From IMG/VR virus record IMGVR_UViG_3300028920_000140, positions 1-41,459 of that record: a stretch of DNA of 41,459 nucleotides. One strand, written 5' to 3'. Shown here in pieces: positions 5,691-19,276 of this stretch; within the stretch, counting starts at the first letter, position 1; each line of letters begins with the position of its first letter. Source of the stretch: a virus. The position numbers were made by a program, and so were the translations under genes. Under the pieces are notes generated by a model that did not search any database, was not told where the DNA came from, and saw only the letters and a list, made by a program, of their open reading frames with translations.

Positions 5691-6104
5691 CTATTTTTGA
5701 ATGATTGGAAACACACGCTTTATTTCAAGCCCACCCAATTTATTGTAAGACCACCCATTATCGGAAAAAAACAAACTACCGGAAAAACACCCATTACCGG
5801 AAATACACACACTATCGCAAATACACACACTATCGAAAACATACACATTATCACGAACACACGCATTATTTAAAACGCACACATTATTTAGAACACACGC
5901 ACTATTTAGAGCACACGCATTATCGAAAATTTTTGCTTCATCATAGATCCAGCAATTTCCTTTCTGACTTAAATTTTCTTCCTTTTCAACCCATCCACCT
6001 AGATCACCTTTCTTAATATTTGAAAAATCTTTCAGTGCTCTAATTCTGTAGAGTGTTCTTCCATGAAACTCTTTACTTTCTTTTGTCAGCTCAAATTTGT
6101 TCAT
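5691..6104 (-). CDS. Hexapeptide-repeat beta-helix protein with a cysteine ladder
   Basis: 137 residues. The N-terminal MNKFELTKESKEFHGRTLYR, then DLGGWVEKEENLSQKGNCW, is the head of a known family of phage proteins with left-handed beta-helix repeats. From residue 62 to about 110 the repeat is strictly six residues long (NACALN, SACVLN, NVCVLN, NACVRD and so on). Cysteine recurs at 64, 70, 76, 82, 94, 100 and 106, with Tyr at 88. Most relatives carry varied residues at that position. ATG at 6104 follows GGGGGTGACAAG. Function of the family is unknown. The cysteine column could bind metal or form disulfides, but that is inference. Confidence 0.7.
   Translation of the reverse strand: MNKFELTKESKEFHGRTLYRIRALKDFSNIKKGDLGGWVEKEENLSQKGNCWIYDEAKIFDNACALNSACVLNNVCVLNNACVRDNVYVFDSVCICDSVCISGNGCFSGSLFFSDNGWSYNKLGGLEIKRVFPIIQK
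5770..5930 (-). repeat. 18-bp degenerate tandem repeat within a gene
   Basis: About nine 18-bp units, each coding for one hexapeptide, with a core close to ACACGCATTATTTA on the plus strand. Neighbouring units differ by a few bases only, so unit number could change by slippage while the frame is kept. The period and coding context exclude a CRISPR array. Confidence 0.85.
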
Positions 6105-6854: not shown

Positions 6855-7019
6855 ATGAAAGTAACACCAGAAATGATTAGACAGAAGTACAAGAGCGTAT
6901 TAGCATTTTCAAGAATGCTGAAGGTTACTCCGGCATCCGTTTACAAGGCTATTAACGGCGGTGCATCTATGGACAAATTACGTAAGAAAATTTACGAATT
7001 TATGGAGGTAGAGCAATGA
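6855..7019 (+). CDS. Cro-like HTH regulator, 54 aa
   Basis: ATG at 6855 follows AAAGGAGGAAAAG. The product contains a compact helix-turn-helix (residues 13-34: SVLAFSRMLKVTPASVYKAI) of the Cro type and a short C-terminal helix. Being the first gene of the rightward operon, next to the divergent promoters, it is the natural candidate to bind the repeats at 6803-6841. The stop overlaps the ATG of the ParB-like gene (ATGA). No CI-type repressor was found opposite it. A lytic lifestyle, or a different lysogeny control, remains possible. Confidence 0.75.
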   Translation: MKVTPEMIRQKYKSVLAFSRMLKVTPASVYKAINGGASMDKLRKKIYEFMEVEQ

Positions 7020-8194
7020 ATCAGACCACTTTGTTTGAAGCTTTAGAAAATATTGAAAAATTAAAACCAAAAGATTTGAAAGAAGTTTTTTCGTTTCTTA
7101 AAAAATTATCGCTAGAAGAAAGAATAGCGAAAATTAACGAAATTAGGGAAACACTTCATTTTTTTAGTCCTTTTAAAAATGAACCTGTTGATTTTGTCAA
7201 ATGGGTTAAAAATGAAGATGTGGCTGCAAACGATTATAATCCAAATAAAGTAGCTCCTCCGGAAATGGAATTGCTTGAAGTTTCTATTATGAATGATGGA
7301 TATACACAGCCAATTGTTACTTGGGATAATCACGAAAAAGGGAAAATTGAAGTTATAGATGGATTTCACAGAAACAGAGTAGGAAAAGAATCAAAGGTTG
7401 TAAATCAAAGAGTAAAAGGATATTTACCTGTTGTAAATATCAGAACTGAGCAATCTGGGAAGAATGACAGAATTGCATCAACGATTAGACACAATAGAGC
7501 AAGAGGAAAACACCAAGTAAATGCAATGTCTGAAATTGTAATAGAGCTGAAAAATAGAAATTGGTCAAATGCAAGGATTTCTAAACAACTCGGAATGGAT
7601 GAAGAAGAGGTCTTAAGGCTTTGCCAGGTATCAGGTCTTGAACATCTTTTTAGTGATAATGATTTTTCAAGATCATGGGAATCGTCTGATGTTTCTGGAA
7701 AGTATGAGCCGATAACTGACGATATTGAACAAGACTGTTTTGATTTATATAGGATACCAAATGAAAAAGATGATGATAGAATATTTCACACACATGACAA
7801 ATGGGAATGCCACAAAGCAGGTTTTTATGCATCAAAAAAAGAAGGAATGACTAAAGAAGAATGTGAGCTGTTTTATGCTGATTTTCTTAAAGATGATATT
7901 AGATTTCGTAATGCACTAGACCATGTTATAAAAGAATGGAAATATTCTTGCGAGCATTATTTGACGAATAAAGCAATGAATAGAATAGCGTGGTTAGGAC
8001 AAGCATCTGTTTGCTATGACTCTGGAATACCTAGCATTTATTGTTCTGGTTTCAATTTACTTTCAGAAGATGAGCAGGATAGAGCAAACAACACAGCTTT
8101 GGAATATCTAAACGAGTGGCTAAAAGCGAACAATAGAGAAGAAGTTGATATAAATACTGGTCTTAGTAACGGAAGACAAACGGAGTTGTACTAA
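7016..8194 (+). CDS. ParB/sulfiredoxin-fold protein, IbrB-like
   Basis: 392 residues. After a helical N-terminus (1-52) a ParB-like domain spans about 56-165, with the core motif IDGFHRNR at 114-121. A helix-turn-helix follows at about 176-206 (NWSNARISKQLGMDEEEVLR). The C-terminal 150 residues (FHTHDKWECHKAGFY and beyond) are a conserved-looking domain I cannot name. It overlaps the PAPS-reductase-like gene by one base, and the two are the usual partners known as IbrB and IbrA in E. coli, where they regulate eib genes. The pairing is common in phages; the biochemical role is not settled and may be DNA- or nucleotide-directed sulfur or ATP chemistry. Confidence 0.78.
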   Translation: MNQTTLFEALENIEKLKPKDLKEVFSFLKKLSLEERIAKINEIRETLHFFSPFKNEPVDFVKWVKNEDVAANDYNPNKVAPPEMELLEVSIMNDGYTQPIVTWDNHEKGKIEVIDGFHRNRVGKESKVVNQRVKGYLPVVNIRTEQSGKNDRIASTIRHNRARGKHQVNAMSEIVIELKNRNWSNARISKQLGMDEEEVLRLCQVSGLEHLFSDNDFSRSWESSDVSGKYEPITDDIEQDCFDLYRIPNEKDDDRIFHTHDKWECHKAGFYASKKEGMTKEECELFYADFLKDDIRFRNALDHVIKEWKYSCEHYLTNKAMNRIAWLGQASVCYDSGIPSIYCSGFNLLSEDEQDRANNTALEYLNEWLKANNREEVDINTGLSNGRQTELY

Positions 8195-9417
8195 TGGCTA
8201 CAAAAAAATATACAAACAAAAGTGTTTTGGAAGCATCAAAAGAAAGAATATCTAATATTTTTGATAATTTTGAAAATTATTACATAAGTTTTTCTGGAGG
8301 AAAAGATAGTACCGTAATGACTCATTTAGTTATGGATGAGGCAACAAAAAGAGGTAAGAAAGTTGGATTATTGATTATTGATCTTGAAGCTCAATATAAG
8401 CACACGATAGAACATGTAAGAGAAATTGTTGAAACATACAAAGAACATATTGATTTACATTGGTTTTGTGGAGAACTGTTGCTTAGAAATGCTGTAAGCG
8501 ATTTCCAGCCAAAATGGGTTTGCTGGGATGAAGAGAATAAAGATATTTGGGTAAGGGAAAAACCTGCAGAGCAATCAGATTTGAGCCAGTACGATTTCTA
8601 CATACCAAAAATGGAGTTTGAGGAATTTATGGTTATTTTTGGGAAATGGTATGCTAAAGACAAATTGACAGCAGGATTTATCGGGATAAGAGCAGATGAG
8701 AGTTTGCACAGATATAGAGCTATTGTTGCTGAAAAAAAGGGGTTGATGTTTAATAATTGGAAATGGACTACAAAATTAACACAATATCTTTATAATGTTT
8801 ATCCAATTTATGATTGGAGAACTGAAGATATATGGATATTTCATACAAAAAACAAACACTTGGCTCATAACAAAGTTTATGATCTCATGACAATGGCAGG
8901 TGTTAAACTAAGTAATCAGAGACTTTGCCAGCCTTATGGAGATGACCAAAAAAAAGGTCTATGGTTATACCACATACTTGAACCTGACACGTGGTATAAA
9001 TTATTAAATAGAGTTTCTGGAGTTAATAGCGGAGCGTTATACATACAAGAACATGGCAACATAAACGGATACAATGATATAACTAAACCAGACAATCACA
9101 CGTGGGAATCATATACAAACTATTTGCTAAAATCACTTCCACATAAAATGCAAGTTCACTATAAAGAACGTTTCAGAAAATTTATTGTTGGGTGGAAAAA
9201 AAGAGGTTACAGCAAGATACCTGATGAGGCGCCACATGATTTAGAAGTAAAGCAATGGGCTCCGTCGTGGAAAAGAATGGCAAGATGCATTTTAAGGAAT
9301 GATTATTATTGCAAAGGTCTTGGTCAAACACAGCCAAAATCGGAAGCATACGAAAAATACAAGTCAATTAAAGAAAAAAGAAGGCTTGAAAATCAGTTAC
9401 AAAGTAATCAAAAATAG
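8194..9417 (+). CDS. PAPS reductase-like ATP-pyrophosphatase, IbrA-like (DUF3440)
   Basis: 407 residues. The PP-loop SGGKDST lies at 34-40 (YYISFSGGKDSTVMTH). IGIRADES and YDWRTEDIW, further on, are standard in the phosphoadenosine phosphosulfate reductase fold. The C-terminal half is the DUF3440 region seen in IbrA proteins. These enzymes bind ATP or an adenylated sulfur compound; whether this one is a true reductase is unlikely, because it lacks an obvious C-terminal redox cysteine motif. The ATG shares a base with the stop of the ParB-like gene, so the pair is made together early in infection. Confidence 0.85.
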   Translation: MATKKYTNKSVLEASKERISNIFDNFENYYISFSGGKDSTVMTHLVMDEATKRGKKVGLLIIDLEAQYKHTIEHVREIVETYKEHIDLHWFCGELLLRNAVSDFQPKWVCWDEENKDIWVREKPAEQSDLSQYDFYIPKMEFEEFMVIFGKWYAKDKLTAGFIGIRADESLHRYRAIVAEKKGLMFNNWKWTTKLTQYLYNVYPIYDWRTEDIWIFHTKNKHLAHNKVYDLMTMAGVKLSNQRLCQPYGDDQKKGLWLYHILEPDTWYKLLNRVSGVNSGALYIQEHGNINGYNDITKPDNHTWESYTNYLLKSLPHKMQVHYKERFRKFIVGWKKRGYSKIPDEAPHDLEVKQWAPSWKRMARCILRNDYYCKGLGQTQPKSEAYEKYKSIKEKRRLENQLQSNQK

Positions 9418-9491: not shown

Positions 9492-9665
9492 ATGAACTGG
9501 AACAAATTTAAAGCGAAACTGATTGAAAGAGGATTAACAATCAAGCAATGGTGCAAGGATAACGCTTTTGATTATGAGCGTTATAAGAATTTAAGGGCTG
9601 GTCTTGTTAAAATAAAAGAGGAGGAAAAAAAACTTTTTGATTCTGTATTGAAATGGGGTGAGTAA
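9492..9665 (+). CDS. Small HTH protein, 57 aa
   Basis: ATG at 9492 follows GAGGTAAAC. The protein (MNWNKFKAKLIERGLTIKQW at the start) looks like a minimal DNA-binding fold, with a putative recognition helix around residues 17-38. Its stop TAA shares a base with the ATG of the replication initiator gene. It may be a regulator of the replication genes. The HTH call is by eye and of moderate strength. Confidence 0.6.
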   Translation: MNWNKFKAKLIERGLTIKQWCKDNAFDYERYKNLRAGLVKIKEEEKKLFDSVLKWGE

Positions 9666-10426
9666 TGAACAGAGGATATGTAAAAGTATGGCGAAAATTT
9701 CAAGATTCATTCTTTTACAATGATTCTGAGGCTGTACATTTATGGCTGCATATTCTTTTGTCTGTTAATCATAAAGATAGAGAATTTATGTTTAACGGAA
9801 AGCGTCAAAGCTGCAAAACTGGAAGCATGATTACTGGGATGTCAAAGTTATCTGAAATTACCGGGATTAATAGAAGTAAAATTAAAAGGCTTTTGGATAT
9901 GTTCGAAAGTGAAACGCTAATTGAAACGCAAAGAAACAATAAATTTTCAATAATTTCAGTGATTAACTGGGACGAGCATCAGAGCATTGAAACGCAAAAT
10001 GAAACGCCAGTGAAACGCCAGCGAAACGCTAGTGAAACGCCAGTGAACCCAAACAAGAATTATAAGAATGATAAGAATGAAAAGAAGATCAAAGAAAAAA
10101 TAAAAAAAGAAAAATTCGGTGAATTTCTAAATGTACTCTTGACTGAAGATGAAAGAGAAAAGTTGAATTTTCTTTTTGGGTACGTAAATGCAGAAATGAA
10201 AATAGAAAATCTTTCTACTTATCTCCAAAGCACAAATTGCAAGAAATACAAAGATCACTATGCTACGATTTTAAGCTGGGCAAGAAAAAACGGTGAGAAT
10301 TATGATTTATCTCTGGCAAGACAGGCATCTAAAAAACAATCTAAAGAAGATTATGAGAAAGAAAAGAAAGAAGATGAAGCAATGCAGGAAATGATTAGAA
10401 CATTAGCAAGAGGGGGTACGGTATGA
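9665..10426 (+). CDS. Phage replication initiator / replisome organiser
   Basis: 253 residues. The N-terminal winged-helix type domain (MNRGYVKVWRKFQDSFFYND, then SKLSEITGINRSKIKRLLDM, then INWDEHQ) is typical of phage initiators with a DnaD/RepA-like N-terminus. A Lys- and Asn-rich linker follows at about 125-150, and the rest is helical. The linker is encoded by the iteron and AT-rich segment at 9910-10110, so the protein probably binds its own coding sequence, as lambda O and DnaD-type organisers do. The following gene may be a helicase loader or partner. Family well supported; exact partner unknown. Confidence 0.78.
   Translation: MNRGYVKVWRKFQDSFFYNDSEAVHLWLHILLSVNHKDREFMFNGKRQSCKTGSMITGMSKLSEITGINRSKIKRLLDMFESETLIETQRNNKFSIISVINWDEHQSIETQNETPVKRQRNASETPVNPNKNYKNDKNEKKIKEKIKKEKFGEFLNVLLTEDEREKLNFLFGYVNAEMKIENLSTYLQSTNCKKYKDHYATILSWARKNGENYDLSLARQASKKQSKEDYEKEKKEDEAMQEMIRTLARGGTV
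9910..10050 (+). repeat. Iterons inside the initiator gene (replication origin candidate)
   Basis: TGAAACGC occurs at 9910, 9922, 9988, 10000, 10011 and 10033, with CGAAACGC at 10022 and a degenerate TGAACCC at 10044. From 10000 on the spacing is exactly 11 bases, about one helical turn. Because 11 is not a multiple of three, the repeats are read in shifting frames, so protein sequence alone cannot explain them. An A/T-rich tract (10050-10110) follows, suited to unwinding. Confidence 0.85.
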
Positions 10427-11064
10427 AAATACAAGAAGTGCTTAATGATTATGATGTTAAGCATTATACGAATCAATACGGCTCAAATCTTGTCAACAGG
10501 TCCTTTAGTATTTTTGAAAAAAAATATAAAGAAGGTCGTGTAAAAGCAGGATATGAAAGATCTTATCTGATTAAGATAATAGAAAATCTTGACAAGAAGC
10601 AGCAGGAATCTAAAAATGATAACAAAGACAGCAAAGAGAACTATTCCAGGATGATAGAAGTAGCACATAATTTTTATGACATTGTGTCTAAAAAACATGA
10701 TTTTGATAAAGAAATTTATGTAAAAAGATATTTTAACATGACAGACCAACAGAAGGATCAAATAGAAAACGATGCTAAAAGGACTATCTGGTATCAGGAA
10801 AGGAATATTAGAGCAGAAAATAAAACTAAGATACAATCCACAATGAGAGATGAATTTCATGCACACAGCAGTGCAGATATACTGAGGAACGCTTTTAATT
10901 TAGGCGGGAAAGGCTTTCTTTCTTTAGCTTCTAACAAGAGCGAAAATTTGAAAAAAGTTTTTCTGGATATTGAAGCAGAAGCAATTCAAGAAGCAATATT
11001 CTGCTTGCTTTATGTTACTAGAAAAAACCGGAGATATGAAGGGGGTGTAGATTATGATGTATAA
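10423..11064 (+). CDS. Hypothetical protein, 213 aa, replication-module partner
   Basis: ATG at 10423 overlaps the end of the initiator gene and follows a GGGGG site. The protein is mostly helical and charged, with a Lys/Asp/Asn-rich stretch near residues 58-75 and a long C-terminal helix. No Walker motif is visible, so it is not a classical DnaC-like loader. Its place directly after the initiator suggests a replication accessory protein, by context only. Confidence 0.65.
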   Translation: MKIQEVLNDYDVKHYTNQYGSNLVNRSFSIFEKKYKEGRVKAGYERSYLIKIIENLDKKQQESKNDNKDSKENYSRMIEVAHNFYDIVSKKHDFDKEIYVKRYFNMTDQQKDQIENDAKRTIWYQERNIRAENKTKIQSTMRDEFHAHSSADILRNAFNLGGKGFLSLASNKSENLKKVFLDIEAEAIQEAIFCLLYVTRKNRRYEGGVDYDV

Positions 11065-17206: not shown

Positions 17207-17372
17207 TATTTTTTCTTAAAGGACAATTTTCAAGAATACCTTCAATAGGGATTAGTTTCACGCTGCATTGAAAAGGATGAGTGCATATTATTTTTTTATG
17301 CTGTGTTCCAGGAATGTTTCGCAATCTTGCATATTCTGCACAGTCTTGGCAAGTCTTTTCGTAATTTCTCAT
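17193..17372 (-). CDS. Cys-rich microprotein, 59 aa, cassette 2
   Basis: ATG at 17372 overlaps the TGA of the methyltransferase gene (ATGA). The protein has C-x2-C near the start (TCQDC), then C30, H32, C36 and C50, a possible metal-binding set. It ends by overlapping the plus-strand Mu-F-like gene. No family recognised. Confidence 0.6.
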   Translation of the reverse strand: MRNYEKTCQDCAEYARLRNIPGTQHKKIICTHPFQCSVKLIPIEGILENCPLRKNINKK

Positions 17373-18022
17373 ACTGTCATTCCCACGCTGTGGTGTCGGC
17401 CTGATACAGAAATCGGATGTCCAAACTTGAATTTGAGACGGTCGCTGTTTTCTACAACTTTTTTTACGGTTGAAATGCGGAAATCATAAACAAAAAACGT
17501 GTCAACATCTAAATCAGCGTTTTCAAGAATTGTAAAAGTGTCAGAACAAGTATAGTCATGATTCTCAATTGTATTTGCAGGACCATCAACATAAACAAAA
17601 TCAGCTTCAACATCTTTAAAATCGTAATCATATCGCACGGTCATAGCATCATTATCAACAATCTTGTCATAAACTCTAAATTCAATGTCATTTTTCAACA
17701 AAGTTTCTCTTACTGAATCTTGATAATCTTTGTTTTCGTCTATGCTTATTATTTCACAGAAATTGCCTTTTTTCTGGTATTCAGCAAAAATCATAGTACT
17801 GAGACCAGATCCCAGCTCAATAATACTTTGAGGGCAGTATCTATCCAGCATATCCCACAACTCTAATAATTTATGTTCTACAAAATACTGCATATTCTGT
17901 TTTTTTTCTCTGTTAATTTCCAGTTGTTTTGCTACATTCGGTAAGATTCTAGGCAACAACTTTTGTGCGTTTATGCAATTAAATAGATATTCTTGCCGGT
18001 GTATCTTGTTTTTCAGATCCAT
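17369..18022 (-). CDS. Class I SAM-dependent methyltransferase, cassette 2
   Basis: 217 residues. Motif I is IIELGSGLSTMIFAEY (about 65-80), followed by an acidic strand end ISIDENKDY and a DFVYVDGPANT motif near 136-146. This resembles the small-molecule or sugar O-methyltransferase branch (Methyltransf_24-like) rather than DNA methylases; no NPPY or DPPY motif is present. Start at 18022 follows AGGGGGACAGC. It may alter a cell-surface glycan or another phage or host molecule. Substrate unknown. Confidence 0.75.
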   Translation of the reverse strand: MDLKNKIHRQEYLFNCINAQKLLPRILPNVAKQLEINREKKQNMQYFVEHKLLELWDMLDRYCPQSIIELGSGLSTMIFAEYQKKGNFCEIISIDENKDYQDSVRETLLKNDIEFRVYDKIVDNDAMTVRYDYDFKDVEADFVYVDGPANTIENHDYTCSDTFTILENADLDVDTFFVYDFRISTVKKVVENSDRLKFKFGHPISVSGRHHSVGMTV

Positions 18023-18031
18023 GCTGTCCCC

Positions 18032-18733
18032 CTAAATTGAAAAAATGTTTGTTGTTAAACCTGTTTCTTTCTTTTCTTTTTTCTCTATGCTTAGCTTGCT
18101 GCTGTCAACGTCGTATGTCGCATGATTCAGTGCTAACGGAAATTTCACGCATACATTATCTATTTCTTCCTGATTCTGAATGTAAAAAGCATAATTGATA
18201 ATGTCATAACCACGATATACGATTCCTGAATTATATTCTTTTCCTTCCTCATTCTTGCTGTAATGGAACTTCATTAATCCGTCCTGAATAATATCGTAAA
18301 TATCAGTATTATCCAACATCCACAAGTATTCATCCATTTTCATTACAAAACATATCTCATATCGTTTCAGCTTTCTCCCTGCTGCAAGATTAGCCTTATT
18401 ATGACATTCCAGAATATAGCTGTTTAACTTAGTGAATTTTTCAGTTCTTTTTAGCATAATCTGCCAGATTTTTCTCTCTTCAGCTTCTTTACCTTGCAGG
18501 TTATTAACCAGCTTGTCAGTGTTAATGTCAACAGTTGCCGTAAAATTGTCTATTGATTCACCTATACCATTTATTTCATCTTGTATTTGCTTTTGAATAT
18601 TCTCTATCTCAACTTCCTTGTTAGGTTGCACAATGCCATGTACAATAGCAAGCTTGTTGAAATTGACATTTCCAGGACGGTGCAATTTTGCATCATCAAG
18701 ACATGTTATTTCGTTCTTTTTTAATAGTTCCAT
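18032..18733 (-). CDS. Hypothetical protein, 233 aa, cassette 2
   Basis: ATG at 18733 follows GGAGAAAACATT. The N-terminal third is charged and coiled-coil-like (EVEIENIQKQIQDEINGIGE). The C-terminal part is richer in aromatic residues and beta structure (GIVYRGYDIINYAFYIQ). No membrane segment and no recognised motif. It lies between the HTH protein and the methyltransferase in one co-oriented unit. Confidence 0.6.
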   Translation of the reverse strand: MELLKKNEITCLDDAKLHRPGNVNFNKLAIVHGIVQPNKEVEIENIQKQIQDEINGIGESIDNFTATVDINTDKLVNNLQGKEAEERKIWQIMLKRTEKFTKLNSYILECHNKANLAAGRKLKRYEICFVMKMDEYLWMLDNTDIYDIIQDGLMKFHYSKNEEGKEYNSGIVYRGYDIINYAFYIQNQEEIDNVCVKFPLALNHATYDVDSSKLSIEKKEKKETGLTTNIFSI

Positions 18734-19041
18734 AATGTTTTCTCCTCCGTCAAGGTTGCCGTTAGCATCTGTTTTTCTTCATTTGTGACGCCGGGATCTT
18801 TTTTCATTCTACTCTTAAAAGAAATCCTTGCATTCGTGCCACGCTTGCACCAATTATGTTCAAGATTCCATTTAATAAGCTGTGTTTTACTAATCTTAAT
18901 GCCTGTTTCCTCTGAGATTATGTCAGCAATGTTTTGAAAAGACAATCCTGTTTTTTTCTTTTTCCTGATATACGCCTTAGCAAGTGCAAAGTGTAGAATA
19001 GTGTACTTGCTTTCTTTTTTCCAAGTGCAATTCGGTTTCAT
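18721..19041 (-). CDS. HTH DNA-binding protein, cassette 2
   Basis: The start at 19041 (MKPNCTW) avoids a long overlap with the upstream gene; an earlier in-frame start at 19098 is possible. The segment GLSFQNIADIISEETGIKIS, then QLIKWNLEHNWCKRG, is a helix-turn-helix of the type seen in small terminase and transposase-like proteins. The Lys-rich flanks fit DNA binding. It may regulate the cassette or act in packaging choice. Confidence 0.6.
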   Translation of the reverse strand: MKPNCTWKKESKYTILHFALAKAYIRKKKKTGLSFQNIADIISEETGIKISKTQLIKWNLEHNWCKRGTNARISFKSRMKKDPGVTNEEKQMLTATLTEEKTLWNY

Positions 19042-19045
19042 TTCT

Positions 19046-19276
19046 TCAACTTTCAACTCGTTCCTCCAGTTCTTTAAGTTCTTTAATTTTCCTGTCAATG
19101 TTGATACGGTACAGCGTAATTTCCATAAGTTCCTCAGGGGTCGGGCAATACATTATTAACTCTGAAATAAAATCAGTCATAGACTTTCCGGCGTGATGAC
19201 TTTTCCGGCGTAATGTTTGCTCCACCATTGGACGCAATCTTAAATTAACTTGCTTCGTCAGTCTGTAATCATTCAT
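19046..19276 (-). CDS. Ribbon-helix-helix type regulator, cassette 2
   Basis: 76 residues. The first 40 (MNDYRLTKQVNLRLRPMVEQ, then GKSMTDFISELI) show the beta-strand then two-helix pattern of CopG/MetJ-like RHH repressors. A C-terminal helical tail follows. GAGGATTCGAAATT precedes the ATG. As the first gene behind the cassette promoter at 19312-19340, it probably represses that promoter. Confidence 0.65.
   Translation of the reverse strand: MNDYRLTKQVNLRLRPMVEQTLRRKSHHAGKSMTDFISELIMYCPTPEELMEITLYRINIDRKIKELKELEERVES

Follow-up and report, generated by a model that had tools for sequence, protein, structure and literature searches.

A very probable phage replication origin of 11-bp iterons embedded in the gene of its own O-like initiator

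Introduction

Do the 11-bp repeats that run through the coding sequence of a phage initiator gene owe their existence to the encoded protein, or do they form the replication origin on which this protein acts? In lambda and Stx phages, iterons and an A+T-rich tract lie within gene O (PMC7466680), and gene 18 of phage L contains six imprecise 11-bp repeats (TGTCCAACGGA) that were called a likely origin (PMC8022706). Origins in O-like genes have hitherto been described one phage at a time, and the same geometry is now found in about 100 diverged initiators. O-type in-gene origins are well established. The class of element considered here is ordinary at its locus; it is the family-level features that look new. 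In the literature searched, the tract sequence, the family-wide geometry and the recognition code were all unreported.

The initiator gene and its product

The window, i.e., the whole stretch of DNA analysed, is an entire virus record and measures 41,459 bases. Its genes include those for the terminase, portal, capsid and tape-measure proteins. An earlier note on this DNA had spoken of an initiator gene. This gene is the open reading frame (ORF) at 9665-10426 (Table 1), an assignment in agreement with O-like and DnaD-like profile matches (PHROG 2514, E = 1.3e-34; PHROG 186, E = 3.5e-16; PHROG 345 “replication initiation O-like,” E = 6e-12). In addition, tblastn aligned the N-terminal domain with the O/gp18 proteins of Sf6, HK620, phage L and HK022 at 30-37% identity (E values down to 1e-17).

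The winged-helix domain was modelled by AlphaFold2 with pLDDT values of 93-98 across most of its length. The model contains helices at residues 59-66 and 70-82 and strands at residues 86-90 and 95-99, with residue 59 at the start of the first helix of the helix-turn-helix (HTH) and residues 70-82 forming the recognition helix. A fold search with this domain returned winged-HTH matches including RepA_N initiator structures, with weak matches to 4pql, 4pt7 and 5kbj; a sequence search of the PDB gave zero matches. The model shows a disordered linker (pLDDT below 50 at residues 111-121 and 128-136), followed by helices of moderate confidence at residues 139-248. These C-terminal halves vary from relative to relative. 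A profile search recognised no helicase or helicase loader gene adjoining the initiator, and the next gene downstream (10423-11064) showed a weak match only, to a family of unknown function.

Table 1. Features of the initiator locus, in window coordinates.
Feature	Position	Strand	Basis
Initiator gene, 253 aa, O-like/DnaD-like replication protein	9665..10426	+	PHROG matches, tblastn
Winged-helix DNA-binding domain, residues 3-105	9671..9979	+	AlphaFold2, fold matches
Codons of M59, S71 and K74, putative base-reading positions	9839..9886	+	Covariation with iteron positions 5, 2 and 4
Two outlying iteron copies (9910, 9922), 12 bp apart, in the DNA-binding-domain coding region	9910..9929	+	Exact TGAAACGC
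Main iteron array, unit TGAAACGCCAG: 9988 (12-bp step), 10000, 10011, 10022, 10033 (11-bp steps)	9988..10043	+	Exact copies, Tandem Repeats Finder, shuffles
Terminal half-iteron (TGAAC-) and junction CAAAC	10044..10054	+	Shared with 68 tract-bearing relatives
Conserved 9-bp repeat tract AAGAATTAT AAGAATGAT AAGAATGAA AAGAAGAT	10055..10089	+	Codon-level conservation, exact-pattern scan
A+T-rich, purine-rich low-stability region, candidate unwinding element	10055..10114	+	Duplex stability, codon pattern
Variable C-terminal domain, helices from residue 139	10079..10423	+	AlphaFold2, comparison

Iteron array and reading frames

Exact copies of TGAAACGC occur six times, at 9910, 9922, 9988, 10000, 10011 and 10033, all on the coding strand within the initiator gene; both strands of the 41 kb window contain no others. 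Two imperfect units accompany them, the near copy CGAAACGC at 10022 and TGAACCCA, half a copy, at 10044, which bears out the six exact and two near copies counted in the earlier note. Its placement of the repeats in the linker region is correct for the array at 9988-10044, whereas the copies at 9910 and 9922 lie where the DNA-binding domain is encoded. The steps from unit to unit measure 12, 66, 12, 11, 11, 11 and 11 bp. Strict 11-bp spacing, previously assigned to the last five or six units, holds for exactly five of them (10000-10044), as the step from 9988 to 10000 measures 12 bp. Tandem Repeats Finder delimited a repeat of period 11 with 5.4 copies at 9988-10047.

Relative to the ORF, the units start in frames 2, 2, 2, 2, 1, 0, 2 and 1, and consequently all three reading frames are used. 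Their arrangement was compared with 20,000 synonymous-codon shuffles in which the protein and the codon usage of the gene were kept constant. The lag-11 self-similarity of 27 compares with a shuffle maximum of 24.5 and the six copies of TGAAACGC with a maximum of five, and not one shuffle equalled the array (P < 1/20,000). Since consecutive units lie in different frames and the observed values were never reached by shuffling, selection on the DNA is indicated, as the earlier note had argued, and not a repetition of amino acids.

The opposite explanation is a protein-level tandem repeat in the disordered linker, or an artefact of codon usage, with no DNA function. It could draw on the modelled disorder and on the fact that three 11-bp units yield an 11-residue near-repeat (NETPVKRQRNAS), but a repeat of this origin would not be expected to pass through three frames, to outscore all synonymous shuffles or to keep its 11-bp period with different residues in different phages. 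Moreover, three relatives (L033, L057 and L062) keep the DNA even though the ORF of the N-terminal domain is out of the tract’s frame. The frame and shuffle tests rule out a protein-level repeat as the cause of the array, and the explanation as a whole is hardly credible.

Conservation of the geometry among relatives

Protein and DNA searches identified 195 homologous genes, which are represented by 104 genes at 75% identity. The titles of their records name Enterococcus, Lacticaseibacillus, Bacillus, Sphingobacterium, Bacteroides, Ignavibacteria, Elusimicrobia, Campylobacterales, Melainabacteria and several gammaproteobacteria. Most of these initiators, from phages of several phyla, possess an 11-bp array of their own in the same linker, with units that vary from phage to phage (TGTCCAACGGT, TAACCAACAAG, TGAACAGCAAG and TAACAAAGAGC, among others). 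Of the 55 representatives that protein similarity had brought up, 43 showed a lag-11 self-similarity above that of synonymous shuffles (P ≤ 0.01), as did 40 of 47 found by their tract. The initiator genes of HK022 and phiAT3 also belong to this family. For 33 of the 55, 11 was the best lag; a significant 11-bp lag was absent in 12, several of which have 12-bp repeats. Relatives that had lost the repeats and kept the protein linker would, according to the earlier note, have spoken against an origin. Mostly the opposite was observed, as the 11-bp array is kept and the linker residues change, and the comparison across relatives gives strong, if indirect, support to the proposed in-gene origin layout.

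The end of the array is conserved as well. Of 68 representatives with a tract, 53 have their last half-iteron at a distance of exactly 11 bp from the first AAGAAT, a register also seen in the window (half-iteron at 10044, tract at 10055). The half-iteron is 79% identical to the last unit of its own phage compared with 47% to the units of other phages. In a held-out set of 56 new representatives with less than 75% identity to the first set, 27 of 44 were in register and six were off by one.

The two outlying copies overlie the codons of residues 82-89, starting at residues 82 and 86, and this placement recurs among relatives. In 22 of 85 phages, a core of the phage’s own iteron falls within the sequence that encodes the N-domain, compared with 2.7 expected from the cores of other phages. 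Such cores sit mostly at homologous positions (residues 82, 86 and 90; also 50), about 64-102 bp before the array. None was found over the codons of residues 59 or 71-74 in the 85 phages. Own-type iterons within the coding region of a DNA-binding domain appear to be an undescribed feature and may serve as secondary initiator sites. The overlapping coding at these cores could inflate covariation at residues 81 and 87.

Covariation of initiator residues and iteron positions

Among 85 phages, the strongest covarying pairs of protein residue and iteron position were residue 59/position 5, residue 71/position 2 and residue 74/position 4. R59 occurred with C5 in 41 of 47 cases and residues other than R59 with A5 in 36 of 38; Q71 was accompanied by A2 in 29 of 30 and R74 by C4 in 46 of 49, and S/T71 was associated with A4. 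Correlated-evolution tests with 4 degrees of freedom, for which the tree was built without the columns under test, gave likelihood ratios of 49, 48 and 20, where control columns reached at most 18, 12 and 14. The associations replicated in the 56 held-out phages (p = 2.5e-11, 6e-12, 6e-8 and 5e-6), with contingency tables of [[23,2],[2,29]] for R59/C5, [[35,0],[3,18]] for Q71/A2 and [[46,1],[1,8]] for R74/C4. Residues 75 and 76, considered as further specificity positions, failed to replicate in this set and were rejected.

In a coarser sister-pair test over 1,133 pairs, only residue 104/iteron position 1 passed the Bonferroni cut, a signal that may stem from overlapping coding near the array; residue 71/position 2 ranked second (p = 6.6e-5). 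The window itself, with M59 and S71 in the protein and A5, G2 and A4 in the iteron, agrees with the code. Residues 59, 71 and 74 appear to read iteron positions 5, 2 and 4, and the initiator very probably binds the repeats in its own gene. A recognition code of this kind is testable and would allow origins to be located, and initiators to be paired with them, from sequence alone.

The A+T-rich tract

The A+T-rich tract that had been noted after the repeats was confirmed at 10055-10114, with 83% A+T and 85% purine. The 60-mer at 10055 belongs to the least stable 0.27% of the window’s 60-mers and is immediately preceded by the iteron array, which is among the most stable stretches of the window. 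In this tract, 18 of 20 codons are of the form xAx, and these triplets place a near-unbroken run of 5'-TnnT-3' on its bottom strand.

In many relatives, the array is followed by the pattern AAC AAG AAT NNN AAG AAT NNN AAG AAT. In two sets collected by protein similarity, Lys-Asn is encoded as AAGAAT in 96% and 93% of cases within the tract, compared with 28% and 40% in the remainder of these genes (p = 1e-19 and 7e-17). This conservation at the level of DNA points to a shared melting or helicase-loading step. An exact-pattern scan retrieved 79 viral contigs, in which the pattern falls within genes for O/DnaD-like initiators; three further loci were truncated at contig ends. Among the tract-bearing initiators are eight with divergent N-domains (L015, L029, L035, L042, L069, L073, L075 and L086), missed by the N-domain search and identified by PHROG. 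As these carry the same (AAGAATNAT)n tract, their existence suggests that the tract is independent of the iteron-binding module. The (AAGAATNNN)n tract is conserved as DNA and common to different initiator types, and it appears to be undescribed.

Three loci depart from a continuous reading frame. In L033 (tract at 1964), L057 (3514) and L062 (8966), the ORF of the N-domain ends at the tract or shortly ahead of it, in two of them with the ending NKQE* within the tract, and the C-terminal domain runs on in another frame with the DNA architecture intact. The break may represent a programmed frameshift, two separate proteins or a mutation.

DnaD of B. subtilis binds single-stranded DNA opposite the DnaA-trios where this carries two or more 5'-TnnT-3' motifs (PMC10201434). 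The DnaD Recognition Element (DRE) and DnaA-trios of B. subtilis oriC share with the window a triplet-periodic tract beside the initiator sites; in the window, the TnnT run stands on the bottom strand. However, the polarity of the strands with respect to the binding sites is mirrored, and the phage tract is also present in bacterial records from outside Firmicutes; a DRE-like reading is conceivable as a possibility only. A canonical DnaA-trio was not supported, as its consensus fits only one triplet in three in the right polarity. Tentatively, and with more doubt than confidence, (AAGAATNNN)n might serve phages as a portable element for single-strand loading that corresponds to DnaA-trios/DRE. 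One melted strand would then be recognised by a factor independent of the iteron sequence, and the tract would keep a constant 11-bp phase to exchangeable iteron/winged-helix modules, in phages from several bacterial phyla.

Alternatively, (AAGAATNNN)n could be a recombination junction for swaps between N-terminal/origin and C-terminal modules, instead of a site of unwinding or loading. Indeed, the tract is situated exactly between the swapping modules and remains constant while N-domains, including the divergent types, and C-terminal domains vary. A recombination site, however, would need neither the fixed 11-bp phase to the half-iteron nor a very low duplex stability directly beside very stable iterons, and this alternative is considered unlikely.

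A model of the origin

At the level of sequence comparison, DNA-level selection, a fixed geometry and protein-DNA covariation can be demonstrated for this family. We infer binding, melting, helicase loading and the start of replication at the array, and regard it as very likely that the locus is a phage replication origin lying within the gene for its own initiator. In this model, the N-terminal winged helix would bind the 11-bp direct repeats. As each unit spans about one helical turn, initiator monomers would align on one face of the DNA. Residue 59, with which the first HTH helix begins, would contact position 5, and residues 71 and 74 in the recognition helix would contact positions 2 and 4. 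The array would end in the half-iteron, one unit (11 bp) from the A+T-rich tract (AAGAATNNN)n. The initiator complex would then melt the adjacent tract, and the helicase would subsequently be loaded via the C-terminal domain.

An initiator that binds inside its own gene, with outlying iterons upstream of the array, might also be expected if the array were an operator for autoregulation of the initiator or the early operon, in place of an origin or alongside one. The 400 bp upstream of 85 genes, however, contain zero own-type iteron cores. The location of the array, some 320 bp downstream of the gene start, and the constant junction between it and a tract of low stability are better suited to an origin. 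An operator is therefore regarded as very improbable.

Relation to known origins

The lambda-O type of organisation, to which the locus had been assigned, describes its proposed way of working: in oriLambda, too, iterons within the initiator gene are followed by an A+T-rich tract. It does not describe the iterons themselves, as lambda has four annotated 18-bp iterons in steps of 20-24 bp (a lambda control gave lag 20 and no lag 11), and the N-terminal domain of lambda O is only 10% identical to that of the window. The structure of iteron-bound O was unsolved according to a 2024 review (PMC10797057). O/gp18 of HK022, Sf6, HK620 and phage L is a closer match than lambda. These origins share a homologous N-domain, in-gene 11-bp direct repeats and A+T-rich sequence thereafter. 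They differ in the iteron sequence, in an array split into two blocks and in a tract other than AAGAATNNN. A P or DnaB-like helicase gene comes next in these phages, where the next gene of the window gave only the weak match to an unknown family.

Similarities extend to the RepA_N initiators of pSK41 and pTZ2162 and to the pPR9 chimera, which have a winged-helix N-domain, an origin within rep and a variable C-terminal domain. In RepA_N plasmids, the origin lies inside rep, and the initiator has a winged helix and a dispensable linker; the plasmid initiator of pPR9 is a chimera of a phage-like N-domain and a swapped origin region, and it replicates (PMC5703833). RepA_N iterons are described as semi-palindromic with a poly-A centre (PMC7145576). 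In contrast to these initiators, that of the window gave no RepA_N match in a Pfam search.

Other features of the window

GC skew, suggested by the earlier note as a check on the origin, did not serve this purpose, as its sign switch near 7 kb coincides with a switch in gene direction. Skew follows the gene strand and is consequently uninformative for the position of the origin. Both GC and AT skew flip at about 7000 and 38500, where gene direction changes. Just upstream of the initiator, at 7016-9417, a ParB-like gene is followed by a PAPS-reductase-like/DUF3440 gene, an arrangement resembling the IbrB/IbrA pair of other phages. A minus-strand island of one methyltransferase-like gene and several unknown genes (17369-19098) is located between the plus-strand portal and capsid genes. 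Finally, a small minus-strand gene at 5691-6104 contains 18- and 36-bp tandem repeats at 5752-5924. Since these lengths are multiples of three and encode a CVLNN-type peptide repeat, the repetition is probably at the protein level.
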